NCBI GenBank assembly: GCA_029260715.1
Contig: JAJDCS010000013.1
Span: 1 to 64,000, forward strand
DNA from: Phycisphaeraceae bacterium
Lineage (GTDB): Bacteria > Planctomycetota > Phycisphaerae > Phycisphaerales > Phycisphaeraceae
Direction of reading: 5' to 3'
DNA: 64,000 nucleotides
The translations under genes were made by a program, and so were the position numbers. The notes under the pieces were generated by a model. The model did not search any database, had not been told where the DNA came from, and was given only the letters and a program-made list of their open reading frames with translations. This document shows positions 17,527 to 26,392 of this stretch, piece by piece. How positions within the stretch are numbered: position 1 is the first letter of the stretch; each line of letters begins with the position of its first letter.

Positions 17527-17952
17527 GTGCGTTTCACGCTGATTGATCAAGTGCTTGAGCGCGGACCCGACCGGCTGGTGGCGGTGAAAAACCTGACCAG
17601 CGCGGAAGAGTATCTAGCCGACCACTTCCCCGGTTTCGCCGTGATGCCGGGCGTGATGATGCTCGAAACATTGGTGCAAGCAGCCAGGCTGCTGGTGAGC
17701 GGACCCGACAGCGACGACGCCCCCAATGGCTCAGACGCGCTTCGGCAACCCGGCAACCAACGCGGGCCGCTGGTGTTAACCGCGGTCCGCAGCGTCCGGT
17801 ATGGCCAGATGGTTCGGCCAGGCCAGACCCTGAGGGTAGAGGTTTCCATCCGCAGCCAAGACGAGCATGGCTGGGAACTGACGGGCGTGGGGCAGGTGAA
17901 AGACCAGGTGGCGGTGCAGGGGCGGTTCCGCGTCGCGCCGCTGGGCATTTAA
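17527..17952 (+). CDS. FabZ-like 3-hydroxyacyl-ACP dehydratase
   Basis: 141 residues with a GTG start. A single hot-dog domain carries the dehydratase active site: His33 in DHFPGFAVMPGVMMLE and Glu47 on the following helix. It would dehydrate 3-hydroxyacyl groups bound to an acyl carrier protein. Between Ser-rich residues 57-80 there is a polar insertion (PDSDDAPNGSDALRQPGNQR) compared with E. coli FabZ. It is the first gene of a FabZ-ACP-FabZ cassette and lies 53 bp before the ACP gene. Confidence 0.87.
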   Translation: MRFTLIDQVLERGPDRLVAVKNLTSAEEYLADHFPGFAVMPGVMMLETLVQAARLLVSGPDSDDAPNGSDALRQPGNQRGPLVLTAVRSVRYGQMVRPGQTLRVEVSIRSQDEHGWELTGVGQVKDQVAVQGRFRVAPLGI

Positions 17953-18005
17953 AAAACAGCGATCACCCGTGGCCAGCAAGGCCGCCACGACGGAGACAAC
18001 CGATC

Positions 18006-18392
18006 ATGACGATGACCAAAGATGACGTGTTCGGCAAGGTGCAAGAGGTATTGGTCGACGCGCTAGGCGTGGACGACGACGAGGTCACCGGGTCAGCCAA
18101 GCTCATCGCCGACCTGGGCGCCGAGTCCATTGACTTCCTAGACATCGTCTTCCGCCTGGAAAAAGCGTTCAACATCAAGATCGGTCAGAACGAGCTGTTC
18201 CCGGACAACGTGCTCAGCGACTCGACCTATGTCGTGGACGGCAAAGTCACCGACCTGGGCATGGCTGAGCTGCGCAAGCGGTTGCCTCACGCCGACCTGG
18301 ACCAGTTCGACACCACCCGCAACGTGGACGACTTTTCCGACATCTTCACCGTCGAGACGATCGTAAAATTCGTCCAGGGCAAACTCCAGTAA
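18006..18392 (+). CDS. Acyl carrier protein with C-terminal insertion
   Basis: 128 residues, against about 78 for a housekeeping ACP. The phosphopantetheine site is Ser41 in LGAESIDFLD (normally DSLD). Helices I and II look normal. About 45 extra residues (roughly 70-112, including GMAELRKRLPHADLDQFD) separate them from a last helix resembling helix IV (FTVETIVKFVQGKL). It sits between two dehydratase genes, so it is probably the dedicated carrier for their substrates and not the general fatty-acid ACP. Confidence 0.9.
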   Translation: MTMTKDDVFGKVQEVLVDALGVDDDEVTGSAKLIADLGAESIDFLDIVFRLEKAFNIKIGQNELFPDNVLSDSTYVVDGKVTDLGMAELRKRLPHADLDQFDTTRNVDDFSDIFTVETIVKFVQGKLQ

Positions 18393-18482
18393 CACTGGGC
18401 CGATCGGCTCTCCAAGGCGGCGGCGGCAACGGGTGTGAAACCACCGCCGCGCCGGCCAATAATCAATGCCGGTGGTATCACG

Positions 18483-19010
18483 ATGCGTTGGATCTGGATC
18501 GACCGTATCTTGGAGCTTGACCGGGCCAGCCGGTGCGTGGCCGTCAAAAACGTCTCGCTCGCCGAGGAGGTGCTACACGACCACTTCCCCGCGACCCCCC
18601 ACTACCCCTTCACGCCCGTGATGCCCAACACGCTTGTGATTGAGGGCATGGCCCAAACGGCGGGCATCCTGGTCGGCCACGCCAACGACTTCGCCGAGAA
18701 GGTCATCCTGGCCAAGATCGCCAAAGCAAGCTTTACCGCCGCCGCCCGCCCCGGCCACACTATCCAATACACCGCCACGATCGACCGCATCGACGCCACC
18801 GGCGCCTCCACCAGCGGTGTGGTGGACCTGATCGACCCCGCCACCGGCTCAACCCAGCCCATGGGGCAGATCGAACTCATGTTCAGCCACATCGATCACA
18901 ACCGGGCTGGCTTGGCGTTCCCCGAGCACAACTTTGTCTTCACCGACCTGTTCATGGACCTGCTACGACAAAGCGGCTTCGCGCCCCCGGCACACCTGGG
19001 CGCCCGCTAA
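18483..19010 (+). CDS. Second FabZ-like dehydratase
   Basis: 175 residues from ATG 18483; an upstream in-frame ATG at 18435 lies in poor context. Hot-dog domain with DHFPATPHYPFTPVMPNTLVIEGMAQ: His34 and Glu54 fit the FabZ catalytic pair, but the loop between them is six residues longer than usual. The C-terminus extends about 30 residues beyond FabZ (NFVFTDLFMDLLRQSGFAPP). It is likely a partner of the first FabZ, either in a heterodimer or acting on a different chain length. No ketosynthase gene follows. Confidence 0.85.
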   Translation: MRWIWIDRILELDRASRCVAVKNVSLAEEVLHDHFPATPHYPFTPVMPNTLVIEGMAQTAGILVGHANDFAEKVILAKIAKASFTAAARPGHTIQYTATIDRIDATGASTSGVVDLIDPATGSTQPMGQIELMFSHIDHNRAGLAFPEHNFVFTDLFMDLLRQSGFAPPAHLGAR

Positions 19011-19067
19011 CCACGGGCCGGGCCGGGTATGTGGCAAACACACTATTTTCCCCTCAAATCTAAGAAG

Positions 19068-19083
19068 TTGCGGAATTCCGCAA
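19068..19083. promoter_or_regulatory. Perfect 16-bp palindrome upstream of WYL regulator
   Basis: TTGCGGAATTCCGCAA is perfectly self-complementary and sits 100 bp before the regulator's start, in the 172-bp gap after the second FabZ gene. It is a good candidate operator for a dimeric regulator, perhaps the WYL protein controlling itself. Confidence 0.5.
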
Positions 19084-19182
19084 ACCGCTGTGGTATCCTG
19101 TTGCCGAGGGAACACTTCTCAAATTGCGCTAGCCGCGAGGCGCTGTCCCGACAAGGTTGCAGACAAAGGAGGCGACCCCGCC

Positions 19183-20172
19183 ATGAGCATGTCTCGTATC
19201 CACCGCTTGCTTCAGCTCATCACACTGCTGCAGAGCGGGCGAGCCAAGGCTACTCAAGACTTGATGGACGAACTGGGTGTCAGCCGCAGAACGCTCTTCA
19301 GAGACCTTAAAGCGTTGCAGGTCGCAGGCGTGCCGTACTACTACGACGCCGCGTCGGGCTACCGCATCGCGCGCAGCTTCTTCCTGCCGCCGATCAGCCT
19401 GACCGTGCCCGAGACCCTGGGGCTGATGCTGTTGGGCAAGCTCGTCGGCAGCCGCAAAGACACACCCCTCAAAGAATCAACCCTCAGCGCCCTAAGCAAG
19501 CTCACCACCACGATCCCCGAGCCCATCCGGTCCGCCTGCTCGGACTTGGTCAACTCCGTGAGTGTCGACCCCGGGCCAAGCCAGTTCGACGAAAGCCCCA
19601 ACAAGTATTACGCGGACCTCCAGCGGTACATCGACGAGGGGCGGGTCTGCCAGATGACCTACAAAAGCCCCGTCGAGCCCGAGCCGTTTACCTGCCGCTT
19701 CAAACCCTACGCCATGCACTTCTCCTCGCGCGCGTGGTACGTGCTGGGTCAGACCGATCGCCACGGCGAAACCCGCGTGTTCAAGCTCTCAAGGGTCCAA
19801 TCGCTCAAGCCGGTTGAGACGCGGTTCGAACGCCCCAGCCGATTCAAAGTGAAAAACGTGCTGGGCAAAGCCTGGCAGCTCATCCCCGAGGGCAAGGTCT
19901 ACCGCATTGAACTGGAGTTCACACCCAAAGTCGCCACGAACGTCACGGAAGTCCTCTGGCACCCCAGCCAGGAACACCGCCTCCTCCCAGACGGGCGGTG
20001 CAGGATGATATTCGAGGTAGACGGCTTAAACGAGATCGCCTGGTGGCTGTGCGGGTACGCGGGGCAGGTTGTTGTCCTCAAACCCGTGGAACTCGCCCGC
20101 CGCGTCCAGCGGATGCACCGCGAGGCCCTGAGCCGCTACGGAACCCACCGAACACCACAGCCGGTGAATTAA
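19183..20172 (+). CDS. WYL-domain transcriptional regulator
   Basis: 329 residues starting at ATG 19183, which has AAGGAGG upstream; the longer open frame back to 18934 overlaps fabZ and is ignored. The N-terminus (RIHRLLQLITLLQSGRAKAT...VSRRTLFRDLKALQ) is a DeoR-like winged helix-turn-helix. The middle and C-terminal parts form a WYL domain, seen in YADLQRYIDEGRVCQMTYKS and the FKPYAMHFSSRAWYVLGQTD strand pair. WYL domains bind ligands or nucleic acid and regulate many stress and defence genes. A strong terminator follows. Confidence 0.85.
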   Translation: MSMSRIHRLLQLITLLQSGRAKATQDLMDELGVSRRTLFRDLKALQVAGVPYYYDAASGYRIARSFFLPPISLTVPETLGLMLLGKLVGSRKDTPLKESTLSALSKLTTTIPEPIRSACSDLVNSVSVDPGPSQFDESPNKYYADLQRYIDEGRVCQMTYKSPVEPEPFTCRFKPYAMHFSSRAWYVLGQTDRHGETRVFKLSRVQSLKPVETRFERPSRFKVKNVLGKAWQLIPEGKVYRIELEFTPKVATNVTEVLWHPSQEHRLLPDGRCRMIFEVDGLNEIAWWLCGYAGQVVVLKPVELARRVQRMHREALSRYGTHRTPQPVN

Positions 20173-20277: not shown

Positions 20278-20346
20278 AAGGTGAGCCGCACGCGGGCCTA
20301 AATTGGCCCCCCCCTACGGGCCCCGTGCGTGCTCGCCTTTTTCTTT
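20278..20346 (+). terminator. Rho-independent terminator after the WYL regulator
   Basis: A long imperfect hairpin (arms around AAGGTGAGCCGCACGCGGG and CCCGTGCGTGCTCGCC) is followed by TTTTTCTTTT. It also separates the convergent cytochrome operon. The 100 bp before it are unusually AT-rich. Confidence 0.75.
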
Positions 20347-22553
20347 TAAAACATTTTGAGGAACTCAATTAACGCACGCTTGTCGCCGTCGGGCAGCGTG
20401 CTGCCGTAGTAGTGGCCCCTGTCCTCGACCAGGTCGGGGCACTTGCTGGCCTTGAGCAAGTCGTCCACCAATTCGGCTTGCATCAGCGCCTTGGCCTCGA
20501 CCGGGTTCATCTTCTTCACCCGGACCTCCACGAGCGTTTTCTTGATCTTGACAATCAGCTTGGCCAGGTCTTTCAGGTTCGCGTCGGTGATGCGCAGGTT
20601 CGTGTTGGCCAACAGGTTGATCGGCGTGCCTTCGGGGATCGGCCCGATCTTCAGCAACGCGTCTTCGTCGATGATGTCTTTCAATAAATACCGCAACGCC
20701 GATGGAATCAGTGTGGCCGGCACTTCTAGATAGCTCTCGTTCACCGTGCGCCAGATCGAACCCAACCCCAACCGCTTCTCGGGCCACAACAGCTTCTCGG
20801 CCGCGTCGTTGAACGCTTCCATGCGCCCCGACACGGACGGGTCGCCCGTGTACCTGCCCAGGGCGTTGTTGTGCAGGAACGGCGCCGACGTCCAAACCCC
20901 GATCAATGACGGCACGCGGTAGTACCCCACGCCGCCGTCGGGCGCATTGAACACGTACGGCTTGTCGGGATCGATCGGGTTGTACGACTCGATCTGCCCC
21001 ACCGACGGTGTTTTCTTGTACGTCTCCGACGAGAAGTTGTCCCACACATTGCCGCGCGTCGCGTTCGTGGCCAACGCCCGAGCGGAGTTCGTCTCCACCT
21101 CGGTTACCGGGTAGCGCGCATCCGTGGACAGGAAGTTGTCCTCAAGGAAGTCGGGCTTCATCACCTCCCTGCCGTACCACGCCACCGCGTCACCACGGTT
21201 CGCCGCCACGCTCGCCGGTGGCTGCTTGCTGGAGTGGCACTGGGCGCAGTTCTCCGCGAAGACCAGCTTGCCCTGTGTCAGCACAGCCGGGTCGTCGGTT
21301 ATATACGCCTGCCCGCCCGGCGCGTCTGCAAGGCGCATGGGCCTGAGACGCATGAAAAACTTCGCCACGTTGTCCAGCCGCTCTTCGGTGGCCCGCCAGT
21401 AGACCGAGTTTTTCTGAGCCTTGGCGATCTGGAACGGCTTCTGTGGCCGGACACCGATCAGCGGGTTGTGCAGTTCCAGCCACTGCTGGGAGAACATCCC
21501 GATATTGATATACACGCGGATCGTCGCGCCCGGCACGCCGATCGAGTCGGCGCCATCTTTAAGGATGTGCGGCACGTGGCGTGTCTCGTTTTGATCGCCC
21601 GGCAGCAGCCGCCCGCTTTTAGCCATCGTCTCCGCGGGCAGCATATCCGCGGCTTTCAGCCTTGCGTTCAGGTCAAAAATCGCGTTGATCGCGTTGGGGT
21701 TGTTGATGTGGTCCGTGGCGATGCGCGACGTGTCCGACGTGCCGGGCGGCTGTGTGGTGATCATCTGCCACAGGAAGTTGCGAGGCTTCAGCCCGGTCGT
21801 AAACACCATGCCCTCACGGAAATACTGGTTGCCGATCGCCGACGCCAGGTTCTCCCACTTGGGCGCGTTCACGTCGTCTGGCGGGTTGAGCGGGTCGGGC
21901 GCGATGTGACACAACCCGCAGCTCATGCCCACGCGGTACGGCCGAACCAGCTTCGGGTCCGTGTAGTAGATCGGGTCGTTGTAATACTTGTTCGCGTCCC
22001 AGTGTTTTTTAGCCTCTTCGTCAAAATCAGGGTTGGGGAAGATGCGCATCCCGAACACACCCGTTGATTTTCCGTACACCGATTCATCTATCCCCTCCTT
22101 GGCGATCTGCGCGTCCACGGATTCGCCTTGCGCACCGGGCTCGGGCACGTCCAGCCACAAGCCGTACTCGCCGGGCTTCTGCGCCCGCCTAAACCCCGGC
22201 TCGTTGATCAGGCCCGCGTCTTGGAACCGCGTGCCACGCTTGCGCGAGTCGATCACCTTCAACACGTCGATCAGCCCGAACCCCTCGCGCGCCATCCGGT
22301 CCAGGAACACCTCGCTGCCCCCGGTCCAGAGGTTCCACGTGTTGCGACCCATAACCTCCTCCTGGGTCAGTTCAACGCCGCCGTCCATCTTCTTGAACAC
22401 GTCGGTCTTGAGCTGCGGGAAGTCAGCCGTCGTCTTGCCGGCCGCCGTGGCGTTGTCCACGGGGTCTTTCTTGAACAACCCCTTGATGAAATCGCACCCG
22501 CCCAGCGCCAACACCCCCAACAACAACGCCGATAGCACAGTCTTCTTCAGCAT
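20346..22553 (-). CDS. Di-heme c-type cytochrome lipoprotein
   Basis: 735 residues. The signal peptide ends in LALGGC, with lipid-modified Cys20. Two heme c sites are visible: CGLCH (212-216) and CAQCH (436-440). The C-terminal half has the motif VGYYRVPSLIGVWTSAPFLHN, typical of large cytochromes related to di-heme peroxidases and RoxA-type oxygenases, and ends GDKRALIEFLKMF. It is probably anchored in a membrane and moves electrons or oxidises an organic substrate. It is the last gene of a three-cytochrome operon, 54 bp after the second. The substrate is unknown; RoxA-like function is only a possibility. Confidence 0.82.
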   Translation of the reverse strand: MLKKTVLSALLLGVLALGGCDFIKGLFKKDPVDNATAAGKTTADFPQLKTDVFKKMDGGVELTQEEVMGRNTWNLWTGGSEVFLDRMAREGFGLIDVLKVIDSRKRGTRFQDAGLINEPGFRRAQKPGEYGLWLDVPEPGAQGESVDAQIAKEGIDESVYGKSTGVFGMRIFPNPDFDEEAKKHWDANKYYNDPIYYTDPKLVRPYRVGMSCGLCHIAPDPLNPPDDVNAPKWENLASAIGNQYFREGMVFTTGLKPRNFLWQMITTQPPGTSDTSRIATDHINNPNAINAIFDLNARLKAADMLPAETMAKSGRLLPGDQNETRHVPHILKDGADSIGVPGATIRVYINIGMFSQQWLELHNPLIGVRPQKPFQIAKAQKNSVYWRATEERLDNVAKFFMRLRPMRLADAPGGQAYITDDPAVLTQGKLVFAENCAQCHSSKQPPASVAANRGDAVAWYGREVMKPDFLEDNFLSTDARYPVTEVETNSARALATNATRGNVWDNFSSETYKKTPSVGQIESYNPIDPDKPYVFNAPDGGVGYYRVPSLIGVWTSAPFLHNNALGRYTGDPSVSGRMEAFNDAAEKLLWPEKRLGLGSIWRTVNESYLEVPATLIPSALRYLLKDIIDEDALLKIGPIPEGTPINLLANTNLRITDANLKDLAKLIVKIKKTLVEVRVKKMNPVEAKALMQAELVDDLLKASKCPDLVEDRGHYYGSTLPDGDKRALIEFLKMF

Positions 22554-22607: not shown

Positions 22608-24047
22608 TCACTGCGTCTTCATGTATTCGATCAACGCTTCTTTGTCCTGCTGGGGCAGGTCGGTGCCGTACAGGTGTCCGCCGTTGCCGTTGCCCCGCTC
22701 GCGTGTGTCGAAACGGAAGCCCACACGTTCGGCCTCGGCCCCCTGCGAAATAAACCCAAGATTCACCGCGTCCACCAAGTCATAACCCCGGTAGAACACC
22801 ACCGTGCGCTTGGCAGGCGGCTCGAGCAGGTCGCGCATCGTGGGCACCGCCCCGTTGTGCAGGTACGGCGCGCGCATCCAAACGCCATCCAACGGCTGAG
22901 CCACATAGCCGTTTGTCTTGACCATGTTTTTGCGTGTCACGCCCAGGTCTTTGACCACTTGGTTGGCGATGTCCGCCGCTTCCTGCGTCCAGGTGATCAG
23001 GCGTTCCGGGTCGGTGCCGATCTCGGCGATGTCGATCACCGTGCCCACGTATTCGCTGCCCATCTCGTGGCACGACGCGCACGCACGCTCATAAACCACC
23101 CGCCCCGCACCAGCCAGCGCCTCGTCGATCGGCATCGGGTACTTCGGCGGCGCCAGTTGTTTGAGCCACGCGTCCAGGTCTTCCATGCGCTTGACCCACT
23201 CTGCGGTCGGCGGCATGCCAAGCCCAAGCGCCGAGTCAATAATCACCGCGCGCGAGCTAAGCGTCTCACCCGCCCAGTTCATGGACTGACCCTCGCGTAG
23301 CTTCAGGTTCCAGATCGACGGGAAGTCCGCGTTGCCGATCGTGTCGTCCGTCGGCATCTCGGTCATGAAGTATTTCGTCAGGTTCATGGGGTCGTCGCGT
23401 CCCGGGCCCCAGTCCGCCCACCCCTCGCGGTTCATCCACGCGAACTGGTCGCGCTGCTCAAGGATCGCCTTCTTCGTGAGCGGGATGAGCAAGAACCGGT
23501 AGATCAGCCTGTCCACCCACGACAGCTTCTTGATCATGGCGATCTCAGCGAGGATCACGTCCGCGTTGAAACGCGGGTCGCCGGCGCAGTCCGACAAGAA
23601 GCGGATGTACTCCTGCACATTCGACGTGTTCGCCGGCGCGGCGGGCACGACAATCGGCGTCTGGTCTTCGCGCGTGCGGTAGGTGGCTGTGTGACACGCG
23701 GCGCAGTTGTTCGTCACCCGGTCGAACCCGACCGTTTTCTTGGAGAACCCCGCAGGCAGCTCCTTGCCCTCTTCCCACACCACGCCCAGCGACGCATACC
23801 CGCCAGGCCCGGGCAAATACTCCGGAAAAATACGCGGCAGCGCCAGCCATATCATGTACGGCAGCCCACGATCATCCTCCGATCCCATCGAGCCATACAT
23901 GAACCGCTCAGCCTCGCTGGCAAACGCCGGCTGCTCCACCTCACGGAAAAATTTGTACCACCCAAACCAGACGATGTACGCCACCGCGCCCACCACCGCC
24001 AACAACGCGATCTTTTTCTCTGCCCGTGCTAGTGAGTTTTTCGCCAT
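22608..24047 (-). CDS. Di-heme c-type cytochrome, membrane-anchored
   Basis: 479 residues. One hydrophobic N-terminal helix (about 12-28) acts as anchor. Heme c sites are CAACH (115-119) and CASCH (323-327). The segment GVWMRAPYLHNGAVPTMRDL and the ending GTDLPQQDKEALIEYMKTQ are shared with both neighbouring cytochromes, so the three are paralogues. The soluble part lies in the periplasm. The start is 11 bp after the stop of the upstream cytochrome gene, so the genes are co-transcribed. The pattern resembles RoxA-like or di-heme peroxidase-like proteins. Confidence 0.83.
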   Translation of the reverse strand: MAKNSLARAEKKIALLAVVGAVAYIVWFGWYKFFREVEQPAFASEAERFMYGSMGSEDDRGLPYMIWLALPRIFPEYLPGPGGYASLGVVWEEGKELPAGFSKKTVGFDRVTNNCAACHTATYRTREDQTPIVVPAAPANTSNVQEYIRFLSDCAGDPRFNADVILAEIAMIKKLSWVDRLIYRFLLIPLTKKAILEQRDQFAWMNREGWADWGPGRDDPMNLTKYFMTEMPTDDTIGNADFPSIWNLKLREGQSMNWAGETLSSRAVIIDSALGLGMPPTAEWVKRMEDLDAWLKQLAPPKYPMPIDEALAGAGRVVYERACASCHEMGSEYVGTVIDIAEIGTDPERLITWTQEAADIANQVVKDLGVTRKNMVKTNGYVAQPLDGVWMRAPYLHNGAVPTMRDLLEPPAKRTVVFYRGYDLVDAVNLGFISQGAEAERVGFRFDTRERGNGNGGHLYGTDLPQQDKEALIEYMKTQ

Positions 24048-24058
24048 GCGTGGTCGCC

Positions 24059-26392
24059 TTAGAACGTCTTGAGGTACTCCACAATCGCGTCTTTTTCAGC
24101 CGGCGACAGCGCCGTGCCGTAGGCTGGGCCCTCGTGCCCCTTATTCCCATTGCCGCGAACAGCCGTGTCGAACCGGGAATACTGCTTGCCCTTCTCCTCG
24201 GATACGTTCGACACAAACCCCACTCGCTTCTGGTCGTACACGTCGTACCCGCGGTAGAACACGCGCGGGCGGTTCGCGCTGGGCTCAAGCAAGTCGCGCA
24301 GCGTCGGCACCGAGCCGTTGTGCAAATAAGGCCCACGCAGCCACACACCGTCAAGCGGCATGTTCACGTACCCGTACGTCTTGCGGAAGTGGCTGAACCG
24401 CTCGCCCGGCTCACCGCCGGCGTAAATCGAGTTCTGCACCATGGCTAGCTGGTGCGTGTACGAGTCGAGGCGGTTGCGGTCGGTGGCGATCTTGTCGATC
24501 GGCACCACTTCGCCGACCTGCGAACCCTCGAAGTTCCGCCCGTCTTGGCCGTGACAATCGGAGCAGTATTGCTGGTACAGCGGCTTGCCTTTGGCCGCTA
24601 GAGCCTCATTAATCGGGAACGGGTACTCCGGCGGTTGTTTGTCGAGTAGCCAATCTTCAATCCGCTTCATGCCCACCCGGTCCAGCGTCGGCGGAAACGC
24701 GCCCGTGCCGAACGACGCGCTTCGGTTGCGCTCCTCGACCGAGGTGTTGTTCCCGTCCCAGTGCAGCTTCATGCCCTGGCGTGGACGCTGTAGCCAGATC
24801 GACGGGAAGTCCACCACGCCGAACCGCTCTCTCTCGGGTAGCTTCATAATGTCAAACCCCAAGAGCACCTTGGCCGGGCTGAACGTATCCACCCGCCCCG
24901 GCCCCCATTCGGCTTGTTTTTTCACAAACGTGAACCGGTCCATGATCATCAGCAGCCGCTCACGCATGTACCCGATGCCGAAGTACCGCATCGCCAACTC
25001 GCTCACCCAGTCCATGTCGCCGCCGATGCGTTCGATCTCCAGCAATATCCGCTGTGGCGTAAACTTCTCGTCCGTCACGCAGTCGAAGACGAACTGCTGG
25101 AACTTGCCCAGGTCGAACGTGTTCGCAGGCATCCCCGTGTAGATCACCGGCTCGCTGTCGGGCGTTTCGCGTACCGTACCCACGTGGCACACCGCGCAAT
25201 TCAGAAAAACACGGTCAACGCCCTGCACGTCCCGCTTGGAAACGCCCACCGGCAAATCATTGTCACCCTCAAACACAAACCCCAGCGACGCGTACCCCGG
25301 GCCCGGCAAGTGTTCGGGGAACAACTCCGGCAAGACGCGCCACACCCAGTACGGAATCCCCGACGCGCGCTCGCCGCCGGTCGAGCCGTACTTGAAGTGG
25401 TCCTCGTCCGATGCGTATGTCACAGGCCGATCAATGTTCAGCCGACAGGCCAAGTACCCTGCCGCCACCAGCAGCGCGATCACCGCCGCCCCCACGATCC
25501 GCGCGGGCCACTCATTCGTCCGCGCGATGTAACTCTGCGGCACTAGCGCGAAGTCGATCAGCCGCTTCTTGCCCCACCACACCTTGCCCAGATACAGCCC
25601 CGGCTGCACCTGCCTGATCTCATCGCGGATTTTCTTAGCCACGAACGACGTCTTGGCGTAATCCAAGACGATCGTCTCTTTGTCGTCGATCCAGCTCTTG
25701 TCCTTATAGACCTGCGCCTTGATCGCCCCGAAGCGCAGCGGCGTGAGCATATTAATCAGCGTCCCCTCGTCGGGGTCGAAAATCTTGCCCTGCCACACGA
25801 TCCACCGGGCGAGCTTGGCAAGCACTCTGCCCGTGCGCGTGCTCGGCAGAAAAATCGCCGTCCCTCGGGTCTGCCCCACGGGGATATCGCCAGCCGGGCT
25901 GTTTTTGTATAGCTCGTCGAGTTGGGCTTTGGAGCGGTAGAGCAGGCGAGCGTCCGGGCTCTCTGGGACCAGCGCGAAGTGGATCAACGGCGTCTTGCCC
26001 CACCACACCTTGCCAAGGTACACACCGGGCTTAATCTCCCGGATCTCATCGCGGATTTTCTTGGCCACGAACGACGTCTTGGAATAATCCAAAACAATCG
26101 TCTCTTTGCCGTCGACCCAGCTCTTGTCCTTATAAACCTTGGCCTTGATGCCCCCGATCCCCAGCGGCGACAGCTTATTAATCAACGCACCCTCGTCAGA
26201 ATCGAAAATCTTCCCCTGCCAGCAGACCAACCGCACAAAACAAGCGATCAGCCTTGCGAAAATACTGCCCGGCAGCGCGATCGCCACGCCGTGCGTGCCC
26301 CACTGGGGGATATCGCCCGCGGAGCTGCTCTTGTACAACTCGTCGAGCTGCTCCTTGGGCATCTTCAATAATTTTGTGAATTCGGAAGCCAT
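24059..26392 (-). CDS. Duplicated N-terminal domain fused to a di-heme c-type cytochrome
   Basis: 777 residues in three parts. Residues 15-142 and 157-284 are two copies of one domain (offset exactly 142 residues). Each has LDELYK-x-S-x-AGDIP, WQGKIFD-x-DEG-x-LIN, VYKDKSW and FVAKKIRDEIR near its centre, and an ending xPGxYLGKVWWGK. I do not recognise this domain. A membrane helix at about 299-317 separates it from a cytochrome with CAVCH (399-403) and CSDCH (610-614). There is no signal peptide before the first domain, so the duplicated part should be cytoplasmic and the hemes periplasmic. It leads the three-cytochrome operon. Confidence 0.82.
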   Translation of the reverse strand: MASEFTKLLKMPKEQLDELYKSSSAGDIPQWGTHGVAIALPGSIFARLIACFVRLVCWQGKIFDSDEGALINKLSPLGIGGIKAKVYKDKSWVDGKETIVLDYSKTSFVAKKIRDEIREIKPGVYLGKVWWGKTPLIHFALVPESPDARLLYRSKAQLDELYKNSPAGDIPVGQTRGTAIFLPSTRTGRVLAKLARWIVWQGKIFDPDEGTLINMLTPLRFGAIKAQVYKDKSWIDDKETIVLDYAKTSFVAKKIRDEIRQVQPGLYLGKVWWGKKRLIDFALVPQSYIARTNEWPARIVGAAVIALLVAAGYLACRLNIDRPVTYASDEDHFKYGSTGGERASGIPYWVWRVLPELFPEHLPGPGYASLGFVFEGDNDLPVGVSKRDVQGVDRVFLNCAVCHVGTVRETPDSEPVIYTGMPANTFDLGKFQQFVFDCVTDEKFTPQRILLEIERIGGDMDWVSELAMRYFGIGYMRERLLMIMDRFTFVKKQAEWGPGRVDTFSPAKVLLGFDIMKLPERERFGVVDFPSIWLQRPRQGMKLHWDGNNTSVEERNRSASFGTGAFPPTLDRVGMKRIEDWLLDKQPPEYPFPINEALAAKGKPLYQQYCSDCHGQDGRNFEGSQVGEVVPIDKIATDRNRLDSYTHQLAMVQNSIYAGGEPGERFSHFRKTYGYVNMPLDGVWLRGPYLHNGSVPTLRDLLEPSANRPRVFYRGYDVYDQKRVGFVSNVSEEKGKQYSRFDTAVRGNGNKGHEGPAYGTALSPAEKDAIVEYLKTF

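Follow-up and report, generated by a model that had tools for sequence, protein, structure and literature searches.

A duplicated domain of predicted barrel fold fused to a RoxA/FadCcp-like di-heme cytochrome in a Phycisphaeraceae bacterium, with a possible role in lipid oxidation

The window analysed here, a stretch of 64,000 nucleotides from a Phycisphaeraceae bacterium, carries an operon of three genes on its minus strand, designated A, B and C, which are separated by gaps of 11 and 54 bp. Gene A (24059-26392, minus strand) is an open reading frame of 777 amino acids encoding a fusion protein, in which two copies of a domain with a predicted barrel fold are followed by a membrane helix and a di-heme c-type domain. 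This confirms the architecture proposed in an earlier sequence-only reading (two N-terminal copies of about 128 residues, a helix and a di-heme cytochrome), with the copies measuring about 130 residues. Copy 1 comprises residues ~13-142 (25967-26356) and copy 2 residues ~155-284 (25541-25930), with no signal-like segment having been found ahead of copy 1. The single membrane helix, residues ~297-317 (25442-25504), has a hydropathy of 2.09, is helical from 295 to 317 in the model and has its counterpart in the N-termini of homologs. The di-heme domain is RoxA/FadCcp-like and of a type here called A (24062-25435); it matches RoxA (4b2n) at 2.3e-10 and contains the heme motifs CAVCH (residues 399-403; 25184-25198) and CSDCH (residues 610-614; 24551-24565), all of these features lying on the minus strand. 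Gene B (22608-24047, minus strand) encodes a signal-anchored di-heme cytochrome of B type, 44% identical to A, and gene C (20346-22553, minus strand) a larger di-heme cytochrome with two CXXCH motifs and a lipobox-like LGGC N-terminus, which is probably a lipoprotein.

Profile searches have placed A and B in NF040606, a RoxA-like subfamily of the di-heme cytochrome c peroxidases related to PF21419, with 176.4 and 173.3 bits against a cutoff of 150. Both also match PF21419 itself (1.1e-15 for A and 2.7e-16 for B; scores of 57-59 against a cutoff of 26.7). Gene C reaches 40 bits against NF040606 and falls below the cutoffs of both profiles, so that it is not a member by score. The earlier statement that the operon holds two further cytochromes of the same family consequently stands for B, while C is a more distant member. 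Membership in the RoxA, RoxB or RoxC equivalogs was rejected, with A scoring only 60-79 bits against 900-1000 and both A and B lying far under the cutoffs. The A and B types belong to distinct lines of orthologs. Around the O2-binding heme, where RoxA has the hydrophobic distal residues F301, W302 and F317, the A types retain W302 and F317 (as W545 and F561) and carry a histidine (H544) in place of F301; in the B types the three places are taken by Asn, Trp and Leu. In RoxA the two phenylalanines stabilise the heme-bound O2 (PMC6797691), and with H544 the chemistry of the A types may differ. The oleate-diol synthase pair of P. aeruginosa offers a functional precedent: its di-heme proteins are RoxA-like, carry a PYFHNGSVP motif and oxygenate fatty acids (PMC4496055). 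The rubber oxygenases RoxA/B/C and this pair of fatty-acid di-heme peroxidases (FadCcp), PA2077/PA2078 (10S-DOX and 7,10-diol synthase), share with the window proteins the di-heme c architecture, the RoxA-like PYLHNGS motif and the tandem A-B arrangement (PMC4496055), but the window proteins differ in the replacement of F301 by His in A or Asn in B, in their membrane anchoring and in the cytosolic barrels.

The heme groups of c-type cytochromes are attached outside the cytoplasmic membrane. The window helix 297-317 aligns with the signal anchor of unfused A-type cytochromes, which in those proteins is preceded by a short tail of positive charge. Because the free homologs of the domain lack a signal peptide, the unfused cytochromes have an N-in signal anchor and c-type heme is attached outside, the N-terminal copies of gene A should face the cytoplasm, which agrees with the previously proposed placement of the domains inside and the hemes outside. 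The one-helix topology has one possible weak point, a hydrophobic stretch within copy 1 (residues 35-53). This stretch forms part of the domain, is modelled in part as a helix (46-56) and may come into contact with the membrane.

The two copies are set at an exact offset of 142 codons (426 bp), at which 88 of 128 residues (68%) are identical, compared with 5-7 at neighbouring offsets, and within the genome they match each other at E ~1e-58. At the DNA level the likeness noted earlier at the 426 bp offset is borne out, with 83% identity in the best-matching 275 nt and 75% across 387 nt, but it is uneven along the domain, ranging from 40-62% at codons 28-57 to 91-93% at codons 88-117. In the tree, the window copies are sisters (98/75) placed beside a Planctomycetota homolog (97/74). 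The NG86 estimates for copy 1 against copy 2 are a dN of 0.20 and a dS of 0.76, and both copies are under purifying selection. The duplication is therefore real but not recent, given the dS of 0.76 overall (0.49 in the C-terminal half and 1.15 in the N-terminal half); the description of it as recent was overstated, though the copies are each other's closest relatives. The pair fits an older duplication within the lineage with stronger constraint on the C-terminal half, or else partial conversion there. A second tandem pair of the domain, unfused, occurs in Nitrosospira (L022).

The suspicion that the domain is unnamed held up in searches of Pfam (E<=10), NCBIfam and PDB sequences, which returned no match, and so did the expectation of a conserved stand-alone family, since a scan of a genome collection yielded 118 confirmed relatives, of which 80 loci were kept for analysis. 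Nearly all members are free proteins of 143-151 amino acids without signal peptide or heme motif, the longer frames at a few loci stemming from first-start calls. R114 and Y103 are among the conserved residues. Two distant relatives from Planctomycetota (L007:1501-2262 and L008) join the domain to a membrane segment of several helices that weakly matches DUF4383, and a distant Nocardia relative has a signal-like N-terminus, so that the cellular location may not be uniform among the outermost members.

Structure prediction for the domain (pLDDT 75.9, pTM 0.73) gave two N-terminal helices, a lid helix and about eight strands, with low confidence in the stretch leading from the lid to the barrel. 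Foldseek searches of this model against the PDB returned 4mve first (E 2e-4, prob 1.00), followed, among the top 50 matches listed, only by retinoid-, bile-acid- and fatty-acid-binding proteins, with CRABP, bile-acid-BP and FABP chains at probabilities up to 0.93 and E-values of 0.02-0.2 to the FABPs proper; a viral structure library gave no match. A full-length model, in which the cytochrome half is poor (mean pLDDT 68), again had 4mve first (E 4e-4, TM 0.63 on the target, rmsd 3.4). Taken on these predicted models, the comparison places the domain and 4mve in the same fold (TM 0.56-0.63, prob 1.00). 4mve is Tcur_1030, a GXWXG/DUF4334 protein (PF14231 and PF14232), which was the best fold match in two separate models and shares a W-x-G-K-x-F motif with the domain. 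Membership in these families was rejected, with no Pfam match at E<=10 and a non-significant hhalign probability of 13%. Because the sequence profiles do not join the families, the modelled domain is described as resembling GXWXG/DUF4334 in fold and membership is not claimed; unlike those proteins, it occurs as free proteins next to lipid oxygenases and in fusion with a cytochrome. The likeness to FABP/CRABP proteins (calycin fold) lies in the predicted small beta-barrel and the similar length, but the domain is bacterial, has extra N-terminal helices and is without sequence similarity to them. Of the features anticipated for the domain, the ligand pocket is thus suggested by one result, the predicted FABP/CRABP-like barrel.

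The gene neighbourhood of the free domain was surveyed by searching the 80 loci with representative neighbours in tblastn. Among the neighbours of recognisable type, the most frequent were a catalase/allene-oxide-synthase-like protein (63/80 loci) and a DyP-type peroxidase (58/80), followed by a di-heme cytochrome of a further type, C (42/80), a GMC oxidoreductase (34/80), which a Nocardia DUF4334 gene likewise adjoins, and a fatty-acid alpha-dioxygenase-like An_peroxidase (31/80), with patatin at 7 loci. These neighbours lie mostly on the strand of the domain gene. The best match of the catalase-like profile is coral allene oxide synthase (3.7e-7), and that of the An_peroxidase neighbours is fatty-acid alpha-dioxygenase (1.2e-57, and 3.7e-112 for one in a Planctomycetota MAG, beside a P450). 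Fatty-acid alpha-dioxygenases and a catalase-related allene oxide synthase are thus the best matches of the neighbours of the free domain, but the window operon holds no alpha-dioxygenase, catalase-like or DyP gene. Two An_peroxidases in the bacterium's own genome were considered as partners and rejected, being unlinked to the operon and resembling PEP-CTERM secreted enzymes (about 600 amino acids, with PEP-CTERM-like C-termini; L098:1633-3441 and L099:5839-7662). Several arrangements at individual loci may also be recorded. An unnamed protein of about 434 amino acids (L017:6456-7760 and relatives), without Pfam or NCBIfam match and with hydrophobic segments in its middle part, is found at 63 of the 80 loci, and in most proteobacterial clusters its gene immediately follows that of the free domain; the bacterium's own genome has no copy. 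The ammonia oxidiser Nitrosomonas europaea (L023, 5965-10510) has a row of domain, unknown, DyP-type and allene-oxide-synthase-like genes that adjoins genes for a di-heme cytochrome of C type and for a GMC oxidoreductase. In a Planctomycetota MAG (L028:5854-10235) the domain gene has as neighbours a cytochrome P450 and a fatty-acid alpha-dioxygenase-like peroxidase that carries a TPR fusion.

Cytochromes of the A and B types accompany the domain at 9 of the 80 loci, with the domain gene directly before A in most of them, which supports the idea of a repeated co-occurrence with exactly these cytochromes. In five Alteromonadaceae loci and two from Verrucomicrobiota (L073, L086) the distance from the end of the free domain gene to the start of A is about 0-16 bp, and the B gene follows next after A where the contig reaches. 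The Verrucomicrobiota loci have homologs of gene C, 58% identical, beside the domain gene, and their order C-domain-A-B contains every part of the window operon. In gene A, two conserved products whose genes normally lie next to each other are joined in one chain. Given how close the stop of the free gene comes to the start of A at these loci, loss of that stop together with a tandem duplication would yield the window protein. The same fusion was found in none of 294 genomes of the same phylum, 338 Verrucomicrobiota genomes or the 80 loci. The operon is patchy and was probably acquired, as it was not found in 150 other genomes of the same order.

The best explanation of the locus, for which the chances appear about even, is that gene A joins a duplicated small cytosolic barrel handling lipids or oxylipins to a periplasmic di-heme enzyme of the RoxA/FadCcp kind, and that the operon is a version of a widespread lipid-oxygenation gene set. 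From the computed fusion, duplication, topology, fold class and conserved association, we infer a ligand, a direction of transfer and a reaction. At the inner leaflet, each barrel would take up its ligand, either a fatty acid or a fatty-acid product that has been oxygenated, and the hydrophobic helix at ~46-56 may act as a membrane-contacting lid. The barrel would exchange this ligand with the membrane, in one direction or the other, close to the enzyme, while oxygenation or peroxide chemistry would take place outside, performed by the tandem pair of di-heme enzymes, A and B, together with lipoprotein C. Against this stands the separation of a cytosolic barrel from periplasmic hemes, direct hand-over between which would need diffusion through the membrane. 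The occurrence of the free form beside fat-oxidising heme enzymes points to an uncharacterised bacterial oxidised-lipid system and not to a new electron wire. The wire, proposed in the sequence-only reading as a redox link from the N-terminal domains across the membrane to the outside hemes, draws on the topology that places the domains inside and the hemes outside, but it is not supported and is very improbable: the domain has a predicted fold of lipid-binding type and showed neither a motif for heme, Fe-S, flavin or nucleotide nor a match to such a family, none of its invariant or near-invariant positions is His or Cys among 44 members, and the protein has one membrane helix and no cofactor within the membrane.

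The main rival to the lipid reading is a heme-binding barrel. Since the conserved neighbours of the domain are nearly all heme proteins (di-heme cytochromes, catalase-like, DyP, An_peroxidase and P450), heme could be the ligand, and heme-binding FABP-like barrels exist. The domain would then be a cytosolic heme handler of the nitrobindin or heme-carrier kind, buffering or delivering heme or detoxifying peroxide or NO for the many heme enzymes encoded nearby. This is rather unlikely, with the lack of conserved His and Cys leaving only Tyr to ligate heme, the best fold matches being lipid and retinoid binders and 4mve, and the heme enzymes of most genomes doing without such a partner. A second rival, likewise improbable, gives the domain no small-molecule role. 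It would serve in assembly or docking and, from inside, would tether the di-heme enzyme or regulate it, with two copies for avidity. Its direct fusion to the anchor and the other fusion, to the multi-helix membrane segment of the two Planctomycetota genomes, would suit such a role, but most members are free and soluble in clusters without A/B cytochromes, and the conserved residues are distributed along the entire domain and not gathered in one patch of sequence.

Extended beyond the window, the lipid reading leads to a more tentative proposal, with somewhat less than even chances, that an undescribed oxylipin system exists in Pseudomonadota, Verrucomicrobiota, Planctomycetota and others, in which a dedicated family of FABP-like cytosolic carriers brings fatty acids or oxygenated products to membrane-anchored di-heme oxygenases or takes them away, and in which carrier and enzyme have here been fused. 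Literature searches on the operon gave nothing relevant, and within the literature searched neither the domain family nor its setting among lipid-oxidation genes seems to have been described. To our knowledge, little has been established about the binding and movement of oxygenated lipids in bacteria. A small conserved protein encoded beside alpha-dioxygenase-like, allene-oxide-synthase-like, DyP and di-heme oxygenase-like genes provides a testable handle, of which Nitrosomonas europaea, too, has a version. One partner pair, the barrel domain and the A-type di-heme enzyme, is directly named by the natural fusion. In Pseudomonas aeruginosa, bacterial oxylipins are known to act as signals (PMC6377657). 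Elsewhere in the window, a row of FabA-like, acyl-carrier and second FabA-like genes (17527-19010, plus strand) constitutes a lipid gene set near the putative lipid-oxidation operon, and is followed by a WYL regulator (18934-20172) whose end lies close to the cytochrome genes.
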